From an uncultured Isosphaeraceae bacterium (GTDB lineage Bacteria; Planctomycetota; Planctomycetia; Isosphaerales; Isosphaeraceae), in assembly GCA_945957605.1 (NCBI GenBank), contig CAMFLR010000011.1:186001-250000 (forward strand): a stretch of 64,000 nt of DNA, read 5' to 3'. Each line of letters opens with the position of its first letter. Position 1 is the stretch's first letter. A model generated the notes under the pieces. It did no database searches. It saw only the letters and a list, made by a program, of their open reading frames with translations, and was not told where the DNA came from. The position numbers and the translations under genes are program-made. Positions 7,268 through 25,919 of this stretch are shown here, one piece after another.

Positions 7268-7396
7268 GCGCCTAAAACTCCTGCCCCTTGCTTGTCCAAC
7301 TCGCGCGAATTATAACTGTACATCCGTTGCCGATCCGGCCGATAAAGAACGGTGTCCAGGGGCTTGATCTTCTTCCCAATCGCGAGGAGTCAGAGC

Positions 7397-7834
7397 ATGG
7401 CAAAGGTTAGCACGTACCTGAATTTCACCAATTCGACAGAAGAAGCCTTCAATTTCTACAAGAAGGTATTTGGAACCGAATTCCCCATGGGGATCATGCG
7501 GTTCGGCGATGCCCCGCCGTCCGAAGGTTGTCCCGCGCCGGCGGACGCCGACAAGAACCTCGTCATGCACGTTGCACTGCCGATTCTCGGCGGACACATG
7601 CTGATGGGAAGCGACGCCCCCGAGGGAATGGGGTTCAAGGTTAACATGGGCAACAATTTCTATATTAGCCTATCGCCAGACACCCGCGCCGAGACTGATA
7701 GCCTCTTCGCCGCGCTCGCTGAAGGCGGCTCGGTACAAATGCCGCTGGCCGAAATGTTCTGGGGTGGCTACTTCGGCAACCTGACCGACAAGTTCGGCGT
7801 GCAGTGGATGTTCAACTGCGAAAGCAAGTCATAA
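7397..7834 (+). CDS. VOC/PhnB-like glyoxalase-superfamily protein
   Basis: 145 residues. The opening MAKVSTYLNFTNSTEEAFNF, then KKVFGTEF, and GHMLMGSDAPEG followed by LAEGGSVQMPL, are typical of the PhnB/3-demethylubiquinone methyltransferase-like branch of the vicinal-oxygen-chelate fold. Members are small cytosolic dimers, and most have no proven substrate. ATG 7397 is chosen for the GAGGAG at about 10 nt upstream; an in-frame upstream ATG lacks family sequence. It is a single-gene unit between two hairpins. Confidence 0.85.
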   Translation: MAKVSTYLNFTNSTEEAFNFYKKVFGTEFPMGIMRFGDAPPSEGCPAPADADKNLVMHVALPILGGHMLMGSDAPEGMGFKVNMGNNFYISLSPDTRAETDSLFAALAEGGSVQMPLAEMFWGGYFGNLTDKFGVQWMFNCESKS

Positions 7835-7849
7835 GCGAACAAGTTGTAC

Positions 7850-7876
7850 GCGGGCCGATCACGATGATCGGCCTGC
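7850..7876 (+). terminator. Hairpin after the VOC gene
   Basis: GCGGGCCGATCA and TGATCGGCCTGC form a 12-bp stem (one G-U pair) with a 3-nt loop, 16 nt past the stop codon. Only a loose T-rich stretch follows. Confidence 0.6.
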
Positions 7877-7954
7877 GCGCTCGAATGTTGTTTCAACAGG
7901 CATTTCAATGTAAATTCGCTCATAATAATTGCCTCGATCGGAGATCCTTGGCAC

Positions 7955-8362
7955 ATGGCAAATCTCGATCGTACGAAGGCGAATCCCTGGCCGCTCAAAA
8001 CTCCGCCAGGCACGGCCGAATACACGATGCACGTCGATGAAAAAGATGGCGTGCGCATCCTGGTATGCACCGTTGGCAAAACGGTTTTGCATTACGACGT
8101 CCGGTGCGTCGACGACCTCCACGCCATGCTCAAAGCCGCTGGCGACTGGGTTGAACTTGGCGGCGCCGACGAGCAAAAGCCGGCCAAGGATGGGACCGTC
8201 GAAGCGTGGGGACGATCGCCCGATAATCCGATCGGCGGCTGGTATGGGCTAAAAAAAGGGCTGCGCGGACGATTCGCCGTGTACGTTCCGCCGCTGCTCG
8301 AGGAACTTGGGCTCGTCGAACTCGAACATAACGCCAAGAACAATCGCGTTCGCGCCAAATAG
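7955..8362 (+). CDS. Conserved small soluble protein, probably DUF6855-like
   Basis: 135 residues with no signal peptide or membrane segment. Features are NPWPLKTPPGTAEYTMH at the start, LVCTVGKTVLHYDVRCVDDL in the middle, then GADEQKPAKDGTVEAWGRSP and GGWYGLKKGLRGRFAVYVPP. The Trp/Gly-rich C-terminal half looks strongly conserved. I recall similar proteins as a family of unknown function (DUF6855) but cannot verify that here. A GGAG lies ahead of the ATG. No function can be assigned. Confidence 0.7.
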   Translation: MANLDRTKANPWPLKTPPGTAEYTMHVDEKDGVRILVCTVGKTVLHYDVRCVDDLHAMLKAAGDWVELGGADEQKPAKDGTVEAWGRSPDNPIGGWYGLKKGLRGRFAVYVPPLLEELGLVELEHNAKNNRVRAK

Positions 8363-8401
8363 ATGAACGCGCAAATATCGTGATGTGCAAGGGTGTCAAC
8401 C

Positions 8402-9283
8402 ATGATTCGACGCATGCTTTCGCTGACGTTGGCAACATCGCTTTTTTGCGTTTGGATTAGCATCACCGCGTCGCTAGGGCAAACATCCGCCGGCAAGGTC
8501 ATCGAGATTTCCGCCGAGGATCTGGGCAAGCAGTTCGCACCCGATACCACTGAGGCCGCGAAGCTTTATCAGGGGAAAGTACTTCGAGTGACAGGCAAGG
8601 TTTCGATGGCTAATGAGCCGTTCGTTTACCTTTCAACCGGGCACAACTTTCCCACCGGCCAACCTGTGCAGATCACACTCGAATATTCAAAAGTCACGAT
8701 GCCCAAGATCGCGGTTGGTGATCGTTTGACCGTTGAAGGGAAGTTCGATCGCACGGCGATTTTCGGCCCTTTGCTGGTGCAGAATCGAATACTGAAACGC
8801 GAACAGAACGGCAAGGTGATGCCGCTTGAAGGCTCGACAACGACTTCGCCAAAAACCTCGACCAAGAAGCGAGGCATCACGAGCAAAAAGGCAGATCAGC
8901 CGCTCGTACCAGTCGTCGCACGCGATTCACAATCGATTCTCTTGTTATTTGATGGCCAGCTTGGTGAAGGCGAACCTGGTTTTCGCGCCAATTGCACTTC
9001 ATTTCGGCTTCGATTCGGACCGGGAAACTGGACCGGCACCAAGATTGGCAAGGCAATCGCCTGGGGTGATGGCAACAAAGGGCAAGACCACTGGGGCGAA
9101 GGCTCTGGCGAACCGACCTTCTCTTCCGAGTTGCGTCGCGATGAGCGTGGAACCTATTTCGTTTTCTCACTCAACGGTGACGACTGGGAATCCGACCACG
9201 TCGCCGCAATGTTCCGTGTGACTTTGCCCGATGGCAAACTTGGTGTCGCCACTGCGCTGATTTCGGTGACGCGAGAGCCATGA
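8402..9283 (+). CDS. Secreted protein with tRNA_anti-like OB-fold domain
   Basis: 293 residues from ATG 8402, which has AAGGG 8 nt upstream; a GTG nine bases earlier is the alternative. Residues 1-27 form a signal peptide (MIRRMLSLTLATSLFCVWIS, then ASLGQ). Residues 30-125 look like the exported OB-fold family tRNA_anti-like: AAKLYQGKVLRVTGKVSM, VTMPKIAVGDRLTVEGKFD, then GPLLVQNRILKRE. A Lys/Thr/Ser-rich linker follows, then a C-terminal domain (from about residue 165) that I do not recognise, with FRLRFGPGNWTGTKIGKA and GDDWESDHVAAMFRV. Probably periplasmic. Confidence 0.7.
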   Translation: MIRRMLSLTLATSLFCVWISITASLGQTSAGKVIEISAEDLGKQFAPDTTEAAKLYQGKVLRVTGKVSMANEPFVYLSTGHNFPTGQPVQITLEYSKVTMPKIAVGDRLTVEGKFDRTAIFGPLLVQNRILKREQNGKVMPLEGSTTTSPKTSTKKRGITSKKADQPLVPVVARDSQSILLLFDGQLGEGEPGFRANCTSFRLRFGPGNWTGTKIGKAIAWGDGNKGQDHWGEGSGEPTFSSELRRDERGTYFVFSLNGDDWESDHVAAMFRVTLPDGKLGVATALISVTREP

Positions 9284-17575: not shown

Positions 17576-18043
17576 TTATTGAGTAGCAGCGTGCGACTTC
17601 ATCGCGGCGACCATCGCCACGCACGATTTCTCGCATGCGCGAAGCTTCTCAACCGCGCGACGCATCTCGTCTGAATCAAACTTCTCGACCACTGCTGCCG
17701 TCTTTTTACACGCGTCGGCGCAGGCCTGACAGGAGTCGATCATCAACGGGCTGTGACGGCCGATCATGCTGGCTGAGAGGCCGCAGAAGCCGGCGCAGTC
17801 GGCAAGCAGGTGCATCGGCTTGGCGTGATCACGCTTGCCTTCGGCTACCTGCATGTAGCAGTGATGAAATGTCTCATCGCATGAACGGGCGCAATCGCCG
17901 CACGCCTTGAGACAGTCTTCATGGGCTTTGTCGTGCATCTTGGAATGGTCGTGCGTGTCGTCTGCCGACGCGCTCGAAGCCATCCCTAATCCCACCGCCC
18001 CAACTCCCGCGCCAAGCAAGCCGATCATCGAGCGTCGGTCCAT
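17576..18043 (-). CDS. Tat-exported four-helix-bundle copper storage protein (Csp-like)
   Basis: 155 residues. A twin-arginine leader (MDRRSMIGLLGAGVGAVGLG) ends near ASSASA. The mature part is Cys-rich with repeated CxxxC spacings inside helices: CLKACGDCARSC, HHCYM, LLADCAGFCGLSASM, CQACADACKK, CEKSCVAM. Csp proteins line the core of a four-helix bundle with Cys and bind many Cu(I) ions; Csp1 is also Tat-exported. A His-rich stretch (HDHSKMHDKAH) precedes the first helix. The start at 18043 is chosen because GGGAG lies 9 nt upstream of it but directly abuts the ATG at 18052. A copper ATPase gene lies 5 kb away. Confidence 0.85.
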   Translation of the reverse strand: MDRRSMIGLLGAGVGAVGLGMASSASADDTHDHSKMHDKAHEDCLKACGDCARSCDETFHHCYMQVAEGKRDHAKPMHLLADCAGFCGLSASMIGRHSPLMIDSCQACADACKKTAAVVEKFDSDEMRRAVEKLRACEKSCVAMVAAMKSHAATQ

Positions 18044-18166
18044 GGCCGTCATCTCCCGTGGTGCGAGTCAATGGACAAGCTGGTCCGCAACATCACGGTG
18101 TTTACTGACTCGCATTTCACGTGCCGACTCGGCAAATTCCCGGCAATTGCTTGCGCAAGAATCTGC

Positions 18167-19567
18167 CTAAAGATCCCAGGCACGCGCGCCACGGAGATAG
18201 CACGATATCACGCCATCTTCGCTGACTTTTAGTACGGGCCCGAACCGGCTGGCGATCATCGCCGCAGTCGAGCGAGCACCTTCGGCCGGAATGAATCCGG
18301 GGATTGTCGCAGCGTCGTGACGTAGGATTGCGCCGAAGGCGAGAACGCGGCCGGATCGGTCGGTCACGAGCGCACCATCAATCCCAGCAAGAGCTTCGAG
18401 CACGGGCGGGTCGAGGTCAGTCACAACTCGATCGCGCGCCAGGTAATGAAGAGCACGTTTCGCGAGCGGGTCGCCGGGCACGATATCACGGGGGCTTGGA
18501 CCGTGGTCAGTCGTCACAAGGTCGTGAGGCGCGATCAGGCGTCCGACAGCCTCGAGCGCCCGATCGACCACGACAAACAGCCCGCCCTGCCTCGCTTCGG
18601 CGAGGTCGAGTGCTGCCTGAAACAGAGAGCGCGCGAGCGGAGTTTTGCCCACCGCTTCTTGCCAGGAGGCGAATTTCGCCGCCGGGTCGAGAATGCGCCA
18701 GCGTCCGTGCGCGAAGGAGAACGCCTGAGCGCCGCTCGCGAACAGCTTGATTTCCTGATTGGGGCTGAGCACTGCGCAAACGTGACCGCCGGTCCGCGTC
18801 GCCCGCGCATGAGCCTGATACTCGCGCGGACAGGGAATCTCGGGGCCAGCCGCTTCAGCCATCCGGTCGGCCCAGCGGTTGATATCAATGATTTCGGCAA
18901 GCTGGCCGTCGTGGTCAACCATAAACAGCGTTCGCTTGCCGTCGCACAGCTTGTGAACCGACTTCAGGCTTGTAAGCTCAGCGCCATAGGCCAGTGCATC
19001 GGGCGGAGTTGGGCGAACGTAGTGATCGGCCGACTCGGGCGGACCGAGCAGCAACGCTCCGGTTGAAACTCGACGGTTCTCGTAGGTTGAGAGCGCTGCC
19101 GTTCGGAGTGTCAGGATCGTCGACGCAATTCGGCTTGGACGTCCGGCCAGCGGCGTATAAGCCTCCGGTTCAACGTAAGCAGCAACGTAATGGTCTTCGG
19201 ATCCGCCGCGAAACAGTTCCATACGCTTGCTGTGTGCGATCTGGAACAGGTTGTGGTAGCGGAGATTGAGTACGGCGCCGATGGCGCGAATCATCCGGGC
19301 ATCGCGATGATTGAACGCGCTACCGGGGCGCTGTTCGAGCCGAAAACGCTGGCCGAAAAGCTCGACGGCGAACGGTCTCTCGCCGTCTTCGAGCAGATTG
19401 AAGCCCGGTCCCAGCGCGGGATCGGCTTCGGACGACGACTCTTCGGCTTCGAAGATCGAACCGGGATAGAAGGCGAGCAGGTCGCGACGAAAGAAGCCGA
19501 CAAAGAGGTCGGCAACCGCGGGGGCCTCGCGCAGGTGAGGCGCATGTAGGCGCGAGGTCGGTGCCAT
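18167..19567 (-). CDS. Protein with degenerate DisA/diadenylate-cyclase-like domain
   Basis: 466 residues, no signal peptide. The last ~120 residues resemble the DisA_N (DAC) nucleotide-binding fold: LEALAGIDGALVTDRSGRVL carries the DGA motif, and GPVLKVSEDGVISCY matches the strand with the conserved Ser-Glu. The RHR motif needed for ATP handling in active cyclases (TGTRHRTA in DisA) appears here as EGARSTAA. So I expect a nucleotide-binding or inactive relative rather than a normal c-di-AMP synthase, though a variant activity is possible. The N-terminal 340 residues are of unknown family and look like a sensory or regulatory region. GGAGGAG lies 8 nt before ATG 19567. Its neighbours (copper protein, secreted proteins) do not explain it. 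Confidence 0.68.
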   Translation of the reverse strand: MAPTSRLHAPHLREAPAVADLFVGFFRRDLLAFYPGSIFEAEESSSEADPALGPGFNLLEDGERPFAVELFGQRFRLEQRPGSAFNHRDARMIRAIGAVLNLRYHNLFQIAHSKRMELFRGGSEDHYVAAYVEPEAYTPLAGRPSRIASTILTLRTAALSTYENRRVSTGALLLGPPESADHYVRPTPPDALAYGAELTSLKSVHKLCDGKRTLFMVDHDGQLAEIIDINRWADRMAEAAGPEIPCPREYQAHARATRTGGHVCAVLSPNQEIKLFASGAQAFSFAHGRWRILDPAAKFASWQEAVGKTPLARSLFQAALDLAEARQGGLFVVVDRALEAVGRLIAPHDLVTTDHGPSPRDIVPGDPLAKRALHYLARDRVVTDLDPPVLEALAGIDGALVTDRSGRVLAFGAILRHDAATIPGFIPAEGARSTAAMIASRFGPVLKVSEDGVISCYLRGARAWDL

Positions 19568-19790: not shown

Positions 19791-20306
19791 TCAACCGCCG
19801 CTGCCGTTGAGATACCACGGCCAGAGGTCCTGGCCAGGTCCCGGCGAGAATGGACGGAAATCGTAAATCGGCACGGTCGCGCCGTTCTGGTAATAGCTGC
19901 CAACTGGGCGCCAGCGATTCCCCAGCAAGGTTTTACCAAAGCGTCCGAACGAGGTCTTGTACTCGGGCAGGCACTCGGGGCAATTTGCCCGGTTCGCACT
20001 TACAGTACCGTAGAAATACGGTCCGTCTGTCGAGGTGCATTTCGTATCGAGCCGCTGGCCGTACATGCCGCCGTTAAACATGTTGTCGGTGTTCGGAGCG
20101 ACCGGCCTGTCGTTGTAGTAGGTGCCGAAGAAGGTGTCACGGTCGGGGTCGTGCGGCAGGTTGGTTTTCATCATGGGGGCGAAGCGGCTAAGAAGGCCGC
20201 TGCGCTGGGCCATATTGGGAATGTGCGGCCCTTGAGCCTGCGTGGGCGTTGTGCCAGCGACGGCCAGCAAGGCCGGCACTATCAAGGCGAGATGTGAAAA
20301 TTTCAT
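19791..20306 (-). CDS. Small secreted protein, function unknown
   Basis: 171 residues. The signal peptide MKFSHLALIVPALLAVAGTT is cut near TQAQG. The mature protein is rich in Tyr, Pro, Gly and Asn (DTFFGTYYNDRPVAP, YYQNGATVPIYDFRPFSPGP) and has three Cys (KCTSTDG, NCPECLP). AGGAGG precedes the ATG. It is the last of three consecutive minus-strand genes for exported proteins and is probably cell-surface or periplasmic. I do not recognise a family. Confidence 0.75.
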   Translation of the reverse strand: MKFSHLALIVPALLAVAGTTPTQAQGPHIPNMAQRSGLLSRFAPMMKTNLPHDPDRDTFFGTYYNDRPVAPNTDNMFNGGMYGQRLDTKCTSTDGPYFYGTVSANRANCPECLPEYKTSFGRFGKTLLGNRWRPVGSYYQNGATVPIYDFRPFSPGPGQDLWPWYLNGSGG

Positions 20307-20397: not shown

Positions 20398-21345
20398 TCA
20401 ACGATCCGGGGTGAACGGCGGGAAGGCGAAGAAATCACGTGGCGAGCGAGTCGTCACAACGTAGGGGACATAACCCGGGGTGATGGGCACCGGGCCGCCA
20501 GGCCCCATGAAGTATTCGATCTTGCCAGCGTGGGGGTGAAGCAGGCCGTAGGCCATGCCCTTGCATTTGCCGAGCAGTCCAGCTCCGCCGCCGCAGAGGC
20601 CGCAGCCGCGACCACCGCAGGCGTTGCAGCCGTTGCCGGCTCCGTGGCCAAAGCCGTTGCCAAGGCCAGCGCAGTTGCCGCATGACATTCCCGCGCCATG
20701 ACCGCAACCAAGGCCGTTACCACCCCAGCCGTGCTTGTGTCCGAGTCCAAGACCGCAGCCGAGGATGCCGCAGCCGTTGCCATTACCGTGGTGCTTGCCG
20801 TGGCCGTGGCCGACCGCGACAGTGCCCTGAGCCGAAGGAGCCGGGACGGGAGCCTGGTTCGAGGCGAGCACGCTGGTGCAAACGCCGCAACCCATACCGC
20901 CGCAGAGTCCGCAGCCCTTGAAGCGAAGCGCCTTGCCGCCCCACTTGTGTCCGCCGAGTCCGCCGCAGGCCGGGCCGCAATCGCCGCCGTGGCCATGACC
21001 GAGACCGTGGCCACCGAGGAAGCCGGTCCCGCCGCAATCGTTGCAGCCCTTGCCGCCGCAGCCACCGCAAAGGCCGTTACCGAGACCGCCGTGCCCCTTG
21101 GCCAGCATGCCGTGGAACAGGCCCGAGGGAAGGCCCATCCACTTGCTGAGGTGGCCTTCTTTGTTGTAGTGGCCGTAAGGCACCGGAGGCGCGTACATTG
21201 GCCCACCGGTCGTCACGTCGATCGCGTCAACTTCGGGCGGAATCGTGTGGTGGAACGGGTCGTTCGCCAGGGCCGAGCGGCCCACAAGGACGGCCGAAGC
21301 CAGGGCGATCGCAAGCGTCACCCCTCGCATTGTTCCGATACGCAT
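20398..21345 (-). CDS. Secreted Gly/His/Cys-rich repeat protein
   Basis: 315 residues from the ATG preceded by AAGGGA; the frame runs further upstream without a signal. A signal peptide covers about residues 1-26 (MRGVTLAIALASAVLVGRSA). Residues 70-265 are dominated by CGxC, CGxxGCxxC and GHGxG units (LCGGCGGKGCNDCGGTG, GCGLCGGMGCGVC, GCNACGGRGCGLCGG), similar in spacing to DnaJ CxxCxGxG zinc motifs but much more abundant. The C-terminus carries GPGGPVPITPGYVPYVVTT, then RSPRDFFAF, with no low-complexity bias. Metal binding or disulfide cross-linking in the envelope is an inference. The antisense strand is also open here because of the GC-biased repeats; those frames are shadows. Confidence 0.8.
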   Translation of the reverse strand: MRIGTMRGVTLAIALASAVLVGRSALANDPFHHTIPPEVDAIDVTTGGPMYAPPVPYGHYNKEGHLSKWMGLPSGLFHGMLAKGHGGLGNGLCGGCGGKGCNDCGGTGFLGGHGLGHGHGGDCGPACGGLGGHKWGGKALRFKGCGLCGGMGCGVCTSVLASNQAPVPAPSAQGTVAVGHGHGKHHGNGNGCGILGCGLGLGHKHGWGGNGLGCGHGAGMSCGNCAGLGNGFGHGAGNGCNACGGRGCGLCGGGAGLLGKCKGMAYGLLHPHAGKIEYFMGPGGPVPITPGYVPYVVTTRSPRDFFAFPPFTPDR

Positions 21346-21678
21346 TTTCAATCCCTTTGACGTCTGCGCAGAAACCCCTCCTGGAGTGCCGGAATTCGCG
21401 AGCGGTGGTCGTGCCTGGGCCGTCCTACGCACAGGCGCACGCCATCATCGTCGGCTAGTTACGAGGCACGATCGCCTGAGGGATACCCTTCCCGCATGGC
21501 GACCCTTCCCGAGTCCACCTAGCCTTCGCCATTGGTCATCGACGCAAATCGACGAACCACTGGAGCGATTCCCAAAAAAGATCCCCGTTGCGCGCGGAAC
21601 GACCGGCCCATTCCCATCGTCGGGAAGGACCGGTCGAGTTGGAAGGCGCGAGAACGAGGGGCTAGCTCTGCCCTTCGA
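21346..21678. other. 333-bp gap between two secreted-protein genes
   Basis: No gene seen. It must hold the 3' end of the upstream transcript and the promoter of the Gly/Cys-rich gene. A GACCGGTC palindrome near 21631 (GGACCGGTCGAG) recurs about 1 kb away in the gap before the next gene (near 22668, CGACCGGTCCGG), so it could be a shared operator; this is weak. Confidence 0.4.
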
Positions 21679-22572
21679 TCAATGAGGCGTCTTGCCGTAG
21701 ACCATCGAGGCGGGCAGTTCTTCAACCTGGCTGCCGGTGCTGCCGTAAGGAATCGCGGCGTGCGCGTCCTTCTTGTTGCGGGTGCGCGACATCATCCAGT
21801 CGCGGAAGTCGTTGCGCATCGGAGCCAGGCCGAACAGGTGGCCGATGATGTGCGGCGAGCCTTCAGCACTCGCGTGCTGGTACGGCGTGAAGTTCGCGAC
21901 GGCGGGAGCGGCGGGACCAGCAGCAGGACCACCATTCACAACCGCGCGGCCAGGAGCCATGGGCGCAGGGCTGCCGGCCGTGGGCACGCTGTAGTTGGTC
22001 CGCATCACGCCAATCGGCTCAGGCTCACCGGCCTGGACCAATCCCGGCGCAGGAGCGGCGTCGCTCGCAACCGCGCGACCCGGAGCGGTAGGCGCGCCGT
22101 TCTGGGTGATGACCGTGACCTGGCCCGGCATTTCGAGCAGCGTCTTGCACTCGCGGCAAATACCGTTCTGCTGGTGCGAGCAGCTTACGATCTGGCCACC
22201 AGCGAACGTGTCGGGAACCGCGGCTTGAGCGACGCGACCCATGTTGGTGTGAACGTGCGGCGCGGTCGGTCCATTCGGAGCGACGATTGACAGCTTCGAG
22301 CTGCACTCGAGGCAGACGCCGTTCGTCATGTGCGGGCAGTGGCGAGCTTCGGCAACGTCGGCCGAGGCGGGAGCGGCGGCTTCAGCAGCGGCCGCGGCCT
22401 TGGCAGCGCAGGCGGCGCACTGCTTGTTGCCGAAAAGGCCGTGCTTGTGCTTCGGAGCCTGAACCGTAGTGCTAGCCGCAGCCGAGCGCGAGGCGGGCAC
22501 ATCGCCTGCCATCGCCGAGAGCGGGGCGGCCAGGGCGAGCGAAGCGAGTGTAAGATGTTTGACGAGACGCAT
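21679..22572 (-). CDS. Secreted Ala/Pro-rich protein with paired CxxC motifs
   Basis: 297 residues. The signal peptide MRLVKHLTLASLALAAPLSA is cut near MAG. Three Cys pairs follow: QCAACAAK, CPHMTNGVCLEC and CSHQQNGICREC; the last two are repeats of one ten-to-twelve residue unit that looks like a small zinc- or metal-binding knuckle. A duplicated linker (APTAPGRAVASDAAPAPG and APMAPGRAVVNGGPAAGP) separates them from a non-repetitive C-terminal domain (HIIGHLFGLAPMRNDFRDWM). GAAGGAG precedes the ATG. It is first of three consecutive exported-protein genes. Function unknown. Confidence 0.78.
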   Translation of the reverse strand: MRLVKHLTLASLALAAPLSAMAGDVPASRSAAASTTVQAPKHKHGLFGNKQCAACAAKAAAAAEAAAPASADVAEARHCPHMTNGVCLECSSKLSIVAPNGPTAPHVHTNMGRVAQAAVPDTFAGGQIVSCSHQQNGICRECKTLLEMPGQVTVITQNGAPTAPGRAVASDAAPAPGLVQAGEPEPIGVMRTNYSVPTAGSPAPMAPGRAVVNGGPAAGPAAPAVANFTPYQHASAEGSPHIIGHLFGLAPMRNDFRDWMMSRTRNKKDAHAAIPYGSTGSQVEELPASMVYGKTPH

Positions 22573-23386: not shown

Positions 23387-23459
23387 TAGAACCGCGCCCG
23401 GTTGACTTCGCCCCGCCTATATAATGACGGCGGGCAAGCAGCCCAGGGGGAGTGCGGAT

Positions 23460-25919
23460 ATGTCGGTTGATGTTGCGGAGAGACTTCGCGTCCCCATTAC
23501 CGGGATGACGTGCGGCCATTGCGTTCAATCGGTGCAGCGAGCGATTTCTGCGGTTCCTGGCGTGAAGTCGGTCGAGGTTCAGCTTCGGCCTGGACTCGCC
23601 GAGGTGAACGCCGATCCGGGCGTCGATCGTGCGCAGATCGTGCAAGCAATTGAGGGCGCTGGATATCAGGTCGGCGAGTCGCCCCCTATCTTCGTGCCGC
23701 TCACCACGATTCAACCTCCGCCGGCACCCCCTGCCCCATCGCGTGAAGAATGGAACTTCGCGGTCGGAGGAATGCACTGCGCAAGTTGCGTGGCTCGAGT
23801 GGAAAACGCTCTCAAATCAGTTCCGGGCGTGAGCGACGTCCGCGTTAACCTCGCGACCGAGCGGGCGGCGGTTGTTGTTGATCCCACGCTTGTTAATGAA
23901 GGTTCATTAGCGAAAGCGAGCGAAGCGGCTGGCTATAGCGTCAAGCGCGATGAACTGGTCGCTGGTGCGGGTGCGGAGTCGCTTCGAAAGGAACGGGCGC
24001 AATCGCTCGCTTATTGGCGGCGACGATTGATCGTCGGCATCGTGTTGACGATTCCGCTCATCGTCCTTGGTTACGCCCCCCTGCTCTGGGACCTCGGCCT
24101 CCAGACCGGTGCGATCGGCTGGACGATGTTCGGCCTGGCGACGGTGCTGCAAATCTACCTGGGCTGGCCGTACATCAAAGGTGCGATCGCACGGGCGCGG
24201 CAAGGCAGTTCGAACATGGATACGCTGATCGCGCTCGGCACGACGGCGGCGTACACTTTCAGCCTCGCTCGCCTGCTGAGCGGACATGCGCATGACGCGC
24301 ACTCGTTCATGGATTCGGGCATCATTCTCACGCTGATCACGCTGGGGAAATACCTGGAAACGCGATCGAAGGGGGTAGCGGGAGCTGCGATCGAACGCTT
24401 GCTCGATCTCGCTCCCAAAACGGCGCATGTCGTGGTCGCAACAGGTGAAGTCGAACGGCCGGTAAGTCAGGTTGTCGCCGGTGATCTCGTTCGCGTTCGC
24501 CCTGGTGAGAATCTTGCAGTTGATGGTCGCGTGGTTGACGGCGAATCCGAAGTCGATGAAAGCATGCTTACAGGCGAGTCGATTCCGGTCGTCAAGCGGA
24601 AGGGAGATCGTGTCGTCGGCGGTTCACGCAACGGCGATGGTAGCTTGACCATCGAGGCGGGTCGACTCGGCAGCGAAAGCGTGCTGGAATCGATCGTGCG
24701 CCTTGTGCGCGATGCTCAGGCATCGAAGGCGGGCGTGCAGAAGCTTGCCGACGCAATTTCCGCGCGGTTTGTCCCAGTCGTGCTTGCGATCGCCGTGCTT
24801 ACATTGCTGGGCTGGGGCTTAGGTTTTCACGACTGGAATCGCGGCGTCTTGAACGCCGCGGCCGTGCTGATTATCGCCTGCCCCTGTGCATTGGGTCTCG
24901 CGACGCCGATGGCAGTTGCCGTGGCGACCGGGCGAGGCGCTCGTGCCGGATTGCTGGTGCGTGACGCATCGGCATTTGAACGCATCGATGGCTTGAAGAC
25001 GATTGTGTTTGATAAAACCGGCACGCTGACTGAAGGAAAACCGAGTATCGTCGATGTTGTCGTTACGAACGGTTTCGACCGCAATGAATTGCTTGCGTAC
25101 GCGGCGGCGGCCGAGTCCGCGAGCGAGCATCCGATCGCTCGAGCATTTGAAAAGCATCGCGATCAACGTTCCGTCAGCGATTTCCGAATCACTCGCGGCG
25201 CCGGGGTCTCGGCACAGGTTGACGGCCACGCCGTACGAATTGGAACGCGTGAATTTATCATCACCGACTCATCGTCGCTCGAATCCCAGGCGGCAACTTG
25301 GGAGTCGACCGGCAAGACCGTGCTGTTCGTCGCGACGGATGAACGGCTTTGCGGTATCGTCGCGCTAGCGGATCAGGTCAAGCCGAATGCACGCGGCGTT
25401 GTCGAGGCACTCGAAGCGAGCGGACTCGATGTGACACTGCTCACCGGCGACAACTCCGGCACAGCGCTCGCAGTCGGACGCGAGATCGGAGTAGCGCCCG
25501 AACGCGTATTCGCAGGTGTGCGGCCGGATGGGAAATCGGCCAAGATTGCCGAGTTGCGGACGCGCGGCAAAGTCGCGATGGTGGGTGACGGACTCAACGA
25601 CGCCCCTGCCCTCGCATCTGCAGATGTCGGCATCGCGCTGGGAACCGGAACCGACGTGGCAAAAGCGAGCGCCGATGTGGTCATCTCCACGGGCGACCTG
25701 CGTGCGGTTCCGCGAGCGATCAAACTCGGGCACGCCACGCTCACGGCGATTCGCCAGAATCTCTTCTGGGCGTTCGCTTACAACACGCTGGGAATCCCGC
25801 TCGCCGCGCTGGGATTTTTCGGCAAATACGGCCCGCTGATCGCCGCCGTGGCGATGTCGCTCAGTTCGGTAACGGTCGTCGCCCGCTCGGGTTTGCTCGC
25901 CCGGCTTAAACTCGACTGA
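23460..25919 (+). CDS. copA: Copper-translocating P1B-type ATPase
   Basis: 819 residues. Two heavy-metal-associated domains with GMTCGHC (near residue 15) and GMHCASC (near 104), eight predicted membrane helices, LTGESIPV, the CPC ion-binding motif [12 protein letters not shown] (about 471), the phosphorylation loop [10 protein letters not shown] (about 517), HP motif SASEHPIA and [10 protein letters not shown] (about 708). This is the standard set for Cu(I) exporters in the inner membrane. ATG 23460 is chosen because AGGGGGAG precedes it by about 8 nt; an ATG 36 bp upstream adds an unrelated peptide. It overlaps the convergent gene by 14 bp. Confidence 0.96.

Follow-up and report, generated by a model that had tools for sequence, protein, structure and literature searches.

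A predicted tandem DAC protein of Isosphaeraceae with an altered, conserved motif at the RHR position

The locus and its neighborhood

The window analyzed here is a stretch of 64,000 nt from the genome of an uncultured Isosphaeraceae bacterium (GCA_945957605.1, contig CAMFLR010000011.1, positions 186,001 to 250,000). It harbors a gene whose product is related to diadenylate cyclases (DACs) and, as described below, is predicted to contain two DAC-fold domains in tandem. The gene and its nearest neighbors are as follows.

18167-19567, minus strand: gene of the putative tandem-DAC protein, one 466-aa ORF from ATG to stop (stop codon 18167-18169)
17576-18052, minus strand: 158-aa Cys/His-rich protein, downstream, 114 bases away; sub-threshold Csp1 match (TIGR04401, 30.8 bits, cut-off 100)
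19791-20306, minus strand: 171-aa protein, upstream, with a signal-peptide-like start (by eye) and no family match

Two more minus-strand frames (20398-21432 and 21679-22572) encode Gly/Cys/His-rich or low-complexity proteins, predicted by eye to be secreted and without a Pfam or NCBIfam match. A P-type ATPase with HMA domains (23424-25919) is encoded on the strand opposite to the tandem-DAC gene. The first-pass annotation had called the setting among copper and secreted-protein genes unexplained, and this setting is mostly not conserved among the orthologues, which form group I of the tree described below. A Csp1-like gene lies within ~160 bp of the tandem-DAC gene or overlaps it in 5/18 group-I loci, several of the others being cut by contig ends. 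The cluster of the 171-aa protein occurs in 6/18 loci and directly adjoins the gene in the window and in locus L059. Other branches of the family have other neighbors, namely, in 10 of 22 group-II loci, an upstream gene for a membrane-protein-like product of 538 aa and, in 21 of 24 acidobacterial loci, a downstream gene for an epimerase-like product of 302 aa (both named by eye). There is no consistent copper link, and the copper neighbors explain little. We set the neighborhood aside as a clue to function because the group-I loci share little; many seemingly conserved antisense ORFs were likewise dismissed as shadow frames of GC-rich DNA. No Rfam family was found in the window.

The Pfam DAC model PF02457 (cut-off 27 bits) found no match in the window protein, whose best Pfam match was DACNK (E 0.095) and whose best NCBIfam match was DS2_3_antiphage (E 0.028). 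Scanned singly with the same model, 28 of 45 close relatives matched at E <=1 (best E 1.7e-7). Searched alone against the PDB sequences, the window protein gave nothing decisive. The family profile matched only RPA49 in the same sequences (E >=0.12), which was dismissed as chance.

The C-terminal domain has a predicted DAC fold and a conserved, altered motif

Catalytic c-di-AMP cyclases are recognized by the motifs DGA and RHR. The first-pass annotation had described a DAC-like C-terminal domain that keeps the DGA motif and the Ser-Glu strand and has EGARSTAA in place of RHR. The ORF translation reads IDGALV (D397-A399), EGARSTAA (residues 429-436) and LKVSEDGVIS (446-455), and the observation of a DAC-like domain without the RHR motif is confirmed. 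An AlphaFold2 model of the protein built from 61 sequences (mean pLDDT 89.8, pTM 0.90) matches DAC crystal structures. All 50 matches listed by Foldseek for this domain against the PDB were DACs (best E 3.5e-5), and VIA placed 40 DAC entries over model residues ~300-466 at Z 14.0-11.2 before a drop to 4.5. In support, the profile of the domain aligned with canonical planctomycete DACs in hhalign at E 3.2e-11. Structure prediction, which had been named as a possible refuter, thus found the DAC fold, and the C-terminal domain (DAC2) is a DAC-fold domain as modeled. Its features are listed with counts over the 61 aligned relatives.

18170-18658, minus strand: DAC2, residues 304-466, from the structure match and hhalign to canonical DACs
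18371-18379, minus strand: DGA motif of DAC2, residues 397-399; D397 and G398 in 61/61 rows
18269-18280, minus strand: G-A-R-S, residues 430-433, replacing G-T-R-H; R432 in 61/61 rows, residue 433 Thr in 58 and Ser in 3
18212-18229, minus strand: K-V-S-E-D-G, residues 447-452, the clade signature; K447 and D451 in 61/61 rows; in 0/30 canonical DACs

The 61 rows span Isosphaeraceae, Acidobacteriota and one Desulfuromonadales MAG. Besides the residues listed, S449 and G452 are present in 61/61 rows and A399 in 58/61, with 19 invariant positions in total. Position 433, where RHR has its His, holds His in 0/61 rows, so that the missing RHR reported earlier is borne out by the orthologues, none of which has a normal motif. 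Since GAR[T/S] or GGR[T/S] is kept in all 61 relatives, the loss of His is not a local decay.

The loss is accompanied in the clade by the signature K-x-S-[E/Q]-D-G. Lys at position 447 was found in 75 of 77 distinct family domain cuts (left from 118 rows after discarding duplicates and 5 rows too truncated to be cut), and the two exceptions (L105 and L122) are wrong cuts whose full sequences carry the Lys. It is also present in 4/4 distant relatives, in 0/6 proteins of the DACNG/DACNH type and in 0/30 canonical DACs. Asp at position 451 occurs in 76/77 family cuts, 4/4 distant relatives, 6/6 DACNG/DACNH-type proteins and 0/30 canonical DACs. As the canonical set was chosen partly by its RH motif, His in 30/30 of them holds by construction, and the absence of Lys and of Asp451 from all 30 is informative. 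Residue 447 would lie on the same face as Ser449 if it is in a strand.

The second R of RHR varies among the canonical planctomycete DACs compared (RHR, RHW, RHE, RHL and others), and the His is therefore the true difference from them. This laxity, together with the retained DGA, Arg and Ser, speaks for an ordinary c-di-AMP cyclase that tolerates Thr or Ser for His. We consider such an enzyme very unlikely: DacA cannot do without RHR, none of the canonical DACs compared (a set partly chosen by the His) lacks the His, and canonical DACs already occur in each of 14 genomes tested, as described below. In M. tuberculosis DacA, the change of RHR to AAA is reported to abolish both ATP binding and c-di-AMP synthesis (PMC3328451), and hence a His-less DAC is not simply to be taken as active.

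A second, degenerate DAC domain is predicted upstream of DAC2

The N-terminal region had been described as of unknown family. This still holds for residues 1-112, which are at most weakly GAF-like, and no longer for residues ~143-292, which according to structure prediction are a second, degenerate DAC (DAC1), making the protein a tandem DAC.

18692-19141, minus strand: DAC1, degenerate DAC-fold domain, residues ~143-292, from structure matches and hhalign (P 9.6e-4)
18938-18943, minus strand: D209-G210, at the DGA position of DAC1; 61/61 rows
18797-18811, minus strand: H253-A-R-A-T257, about one helical turn past the RHR position of DAC1; H253 and T257 each in 60/61 rows
19232-19567, minus strand: N-terminal region, residues 1-112, at most weakly resembling GAF structures (Z <=4.5)

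Within the full-length model, residues 309-465 follow the same succession of helices and strands as residues 146-286. Residues 110-306 were also folded alone (pLDDT 85.0, pTM 0.85), and with this model all 50 matches listed by Foldseek were again DACs (best E 3.5e-5). The first 40 PDB entries returned by VIA were all DACs as well (Z 9.7-7.4), with 9y9y_A at the top (Z 9.7, 3.0 A over 119 residues); the entry next after the DACs, a fructose bisphosphatase, is unrelated (Z 3.4). Sequence comparison lends modest, weak support to DAC1 as a DAC. Aligned with canonical DACs by hhalign (P 9.6e-4, probability 22%, 85 columns), it falls in the expected register, with D209-G210 onto the DG of DGA, and the profiles of DAC1 and DAC2 compare at P 0.02. 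E163 is found in 61/61 rows, like D209 and G210. The DG is replaced in several distant tandem relatives, by N-G in Agrobacterium vitis, S-S in L129 and V-S in L127. For the N-terminal region, comparison of residues 11-114, taken from the full-chain model, with GAF folds gave a best Z of 4.5.

The family is widespread in Isosphaeraceae and has a paralogue in the same genome

Among 59 genomes searched, the protein has matches in 33 of the 37 from Isosphaeraceae, including Singulisphaera, Paludisphaera, Aquisphaera and Tautonia, and in 2 of the 22 from elsewhere in the class; with homologues of the same layout in these genomes, this is a real gene. A scan of GTDB contigs yielded 68 distinct loci, including many from Acidobacteriota and one from a Desulfuromonadales MAG. 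The window's genome carries a paralogue (G000:C7:355729-357081; L031:5679-7082) that is 44% identical to the window protein and is a second putative tandem DAC. It scored 29 bits against PF02457 in the genome search and 26.7 bits by hmmscan, around the cut-off of 27 bits. In a quick tree, the window protein falls in group I (20 rows, support 100) and the paralogue in group II (26 rows, support 100), a group present in most of the Isosphaeraceae genomes searched, while most acidobacterial sequences fall outside both. One acidobacterial copy (L121:1629-2345) has a large internal gap, in which the DGA region is missing while GARTTAA and KVSEDG are kept; the gap is either a deletion or an assembly error.

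That the window protein has no Pfam DAC match might be taken to mean that it is a decaying paralogue without function. This reading is hardly credible given open frames in both paralogous groups over two phyla and the 19 invariant positions, and such conservation refutes it in practice.

The protein occurs beside canonical DACs and a c-di-AMP riboswitch

A canonical DAC scoring over the Pfam cut-off was found in 14/14 genomes tested, and the tandem DAC is therefore an extra protein. The window's genome encodes two canonical DACs, and one c-di-AMP riboswitch in it exceeds the gathering score (RF00379, 88.7 bits, G000:C29:226-372, locus L184). The riboswitch precedes two genes named by eye, one Usp-like and one permease-like, the second of which has a Usp-like C-terminus. 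c-di-AMP signaling is probably live in this genome.

In such cells the tandem DAC could be a non-catalytic receptor, derived from a synthase, that senses c-di-AMP or ATP; its fused pockets would bind the ligand in the manner of product-bound DAC dimers, and this would be relayed to the N-terminal region. The ligand is presumably present where canonical DACs are, solved DAC structures include product-bound entries (judged by PDB titles), and the loss of His removes a residue required for ATP binding in DacA. The invariance of the acidic residues and of the DGA Asp over 61 rows sits less easily with a pure receptor, for which the need for them is not obvious, and a site that has acquired an invariant Lys and an invariant Asp looks rebuilt. 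We regard a receptor as a real possibility that falls short of being probable.

A link to phage defense is a lead for the clade

DS-2 is reported to consist of a phospholipase, a cGAS and a DAC; mutation of two DAC residues predicted to be catalytic abolished phage defense, and 15 of 30 homologues adjoin a CBASS (DefensePredictor paper, PMC13092281). Of the analogues whose role has been tested, the DS-2 anti-phage DAC is the closest, and its relatives are also His-less. One of them, the Citrobacter plasmid protein P0003, scored 803.8 bits against the DS2_3_antiphage cut-off of 630 and has GSRYNSG and no RHR. By analogy, His-less DACs can matter, as the Citrobacter protein lacks RHR and mutants of the DS-2 DAC lose defense. 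Seven plasmid regions of the DS2_3 type were found and four were read, three of which adjoin a nucleotidyltransferase gene.

When 72,556 plasmids were searched by tblastn with P0001, a single record was matched, Agrobacterium vitis pRvVAT039d. The protein, annotated just as a hypothetical protein, is a tandem relative whose motifs read GGRTAA and KISQDG, and it adjoins a CBASS operon of patatin, DncV-like synthase, ThiF and Mov34 genes, whose synthase was confirmed by Pfam (DncV-like_NTFase, E 1.9e-21).

L188:7362-13162, A. vitis pRvVAT039d: tandem-DAC relative (7362-8642) and CBASS operon

These neighbors raise the question of whether the window protein belongs to a phage-defense module like DS-2 that makes or senses a nucleotide upon infection, with signaling of the CBASS type. 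With the A. vitis protein as query, two further plasmid relatives were found, neither beside a CBASS. In tblastn with nine CBASS proteins against the family loci with 10-kb flanks and other loci, no match lay outside the source plasmid regions, a test limited by the fast divergence of the synthases. PADLOC gave no match, viral contigs had none with P0002 as query, and the viral structure library had none to the predicted structure at E 0.001. The gene is near-universal in Isosphaeraceae (33/37), unlike a typical mobile defense gene. We thus consider a defense role for the window protein unlikely and take the link as a lead for the clade, not a demonstrated role.

Discussion

The protein is best explained, to our mind with about an even chance of being right, as a tandem DAC that binds nucleotides through a rewired phosphate site, which is probably catalytic and perhaps paired with DAC1 in cis. 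DAC2 keeps the Asp-Gly of DGA, the first Arg and the Ser of a DAC site, with Thr or Ser replacing the His, and has gained two invariant residues flanking the Ser at a distance of two, a Lys on its N-terminal side and an Asp on its C-terminal side. Some of the phosphate contacts that went with the His may have passed to the new Lys. DAC1 may act in cis as the partner of DAC2, much as C1 and C2 domains pair in animal adenylyl cyclases. We infer this partnership because DAC chemistry requires two DAC domains face to face, catalysis being reported to need them head to head (PMC8573169). The site so formed would bind a purine nucleotide and probably still be catalytic, its product not necessarily being c-di-AMP, and the protein would act beside the ordinary c-di-AMP cyclases of the cell.

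We favor this rewired, probably catalytic site over a receptor for c-di-AMP or ATP. The first-pass annotation had offered a nucleotide sensor, a pseudo-enzyme or a cyclase with another product. The Asp, Arg and Ser and the new Lys and Asp (D397, R432, S449, K447 and D451) never vary, which argues that the site is not eroding; as it appears rebuilt instead, a pseudo-enzyme is not the natural default. Points against the rewired site include the loss of ATP binding in the AAA mutant of M. tuberculosis DacA and a contact seen in another DacA. In S. aureus DacA, the Asp and Gly of DGA are reported to contact the ribose and the Thr preceding RHR the phosphate (PMC6368335), and this Thr is Ala in the window protein, though it is likewise Ala in 8/30 of the canonical set. 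The partner role of DAC1 also appears not to be universal, judging from the loss of its DG in several distant tandem relatives, and DAC2 could alternatively pair with the DAC2 of another chain. More speculatively, and in our estimate doubtful, the protein might be a cis-acting two-domain nucleotidyl cyclase, in which DAC1 and DAC2 form one head-to-head site, the Lys stands in for the RHR His and the product is other than c-di-AMP. If true, Isosphaeraceae and Acidobacteriota would have a nucleotide signaling enzyme of a new class, and a mobile relative of it adjoins a CBASS.

By losing the His, gaining Lys and Asp and fusing a degenerate DAC in front, this conserved clade would represent a DAC fold re-specified, whose second copy probably handles nucleotides in a different way. 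Mutants of its members could show cleanly whether the RHR His can be replaced. A further implication is that the 'probable sensor domains' ahead of DACs may be worn-down DACs, as the predicted fold indicates for this clade, at a time when non-canonical DACs are just being tied to phage defense through DS-2. In the literature on DACNK, DACNG/DACNH and degenerate or tandem DACs, with the 2023 review of DAC architecture (Galperin) outside its scope, we did not find the tandem layout described.

Comparison with known DAC systems

DAC2 shares with the canonical DACs (CdaA, DisA, CdaS, CdaM and CdaZ) the fold (Z 11-14), the DGA, the first Arg and the Ser of the SE strand. It differs from them in lacking the RHR His, in having K-x-S-x-D-G where they have hydrophobic-x-S-[E/Q]-[T/S/N]-G, and in the degenerate DAC fused ahead of it. 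Five classes of DAC are named (PMC10167629), and the tandem layout and motif fit none of the five as these are known to us. A third kind of DAC with HDGA, GTRHS and SEERG is encoded in Singulisphaera by frames of 459 and 415 aa (L161 and L162), besides the planctomycete-type DACs.

The DACNG-DACNH-DAC proteins matched by DS2_3_antiphage (NF053872; DS-2) are likewise His-less (GAR[Y/F]NS) and have S-x-D and a long N-terminal region, and their DAC compares with DAC2 at E 1.3e-10 in profile comparison. In contrast to the window clade, they have Val at the position of the signature Lys (6/6) and carry DACNG and DACNH Pfam domains, none of which was seen in the window clade. The window protein scored 12.8 bits against NF053872, under the equivalog cut-off of 630. 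Proteins of this type with GAR[Y/F]NS for RHR occur in other Planctomycetota (L133, L134, L137, L138, L139 and L150), and the DACNG-DACNH-DAC layout was checked with Pfam for L133, L134 and L138.

DACNG, DACNH and DACNK, the 'probable sensor domains' of Pfam, all sit ahead of DACs. DACNH of the DS2_3 proteins compared with DAC1 at an insignificant P of 0.21, and we do not claim it as a DAC. DACNK (PF21753) matches weakly within DAC1 (residues 159-222, 12.9 bits, below the curated cut-off of 27), and we did not adopt it as a name for DAC1. It matched 8 of 45 relatives (best E 0.0025); a search of 392 genomes of the phylum gave two sub-threshold matches and none over the cut-off.

The plasmid tandem relatives from A. 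vitis (WP_235678681.1) and Vescimonas (WP_212822112.1) share the N-terminal region, the middle domain and a His-less DAC2 with K-I-S-[Q/E]-D-G. They are ~30% identical or less, and DAC1 of the A. vitis protein is without the DG. Compared with all of these systems, the tandem-DAC clade is DAC by fold and, by motif, not a canonical cyclase.
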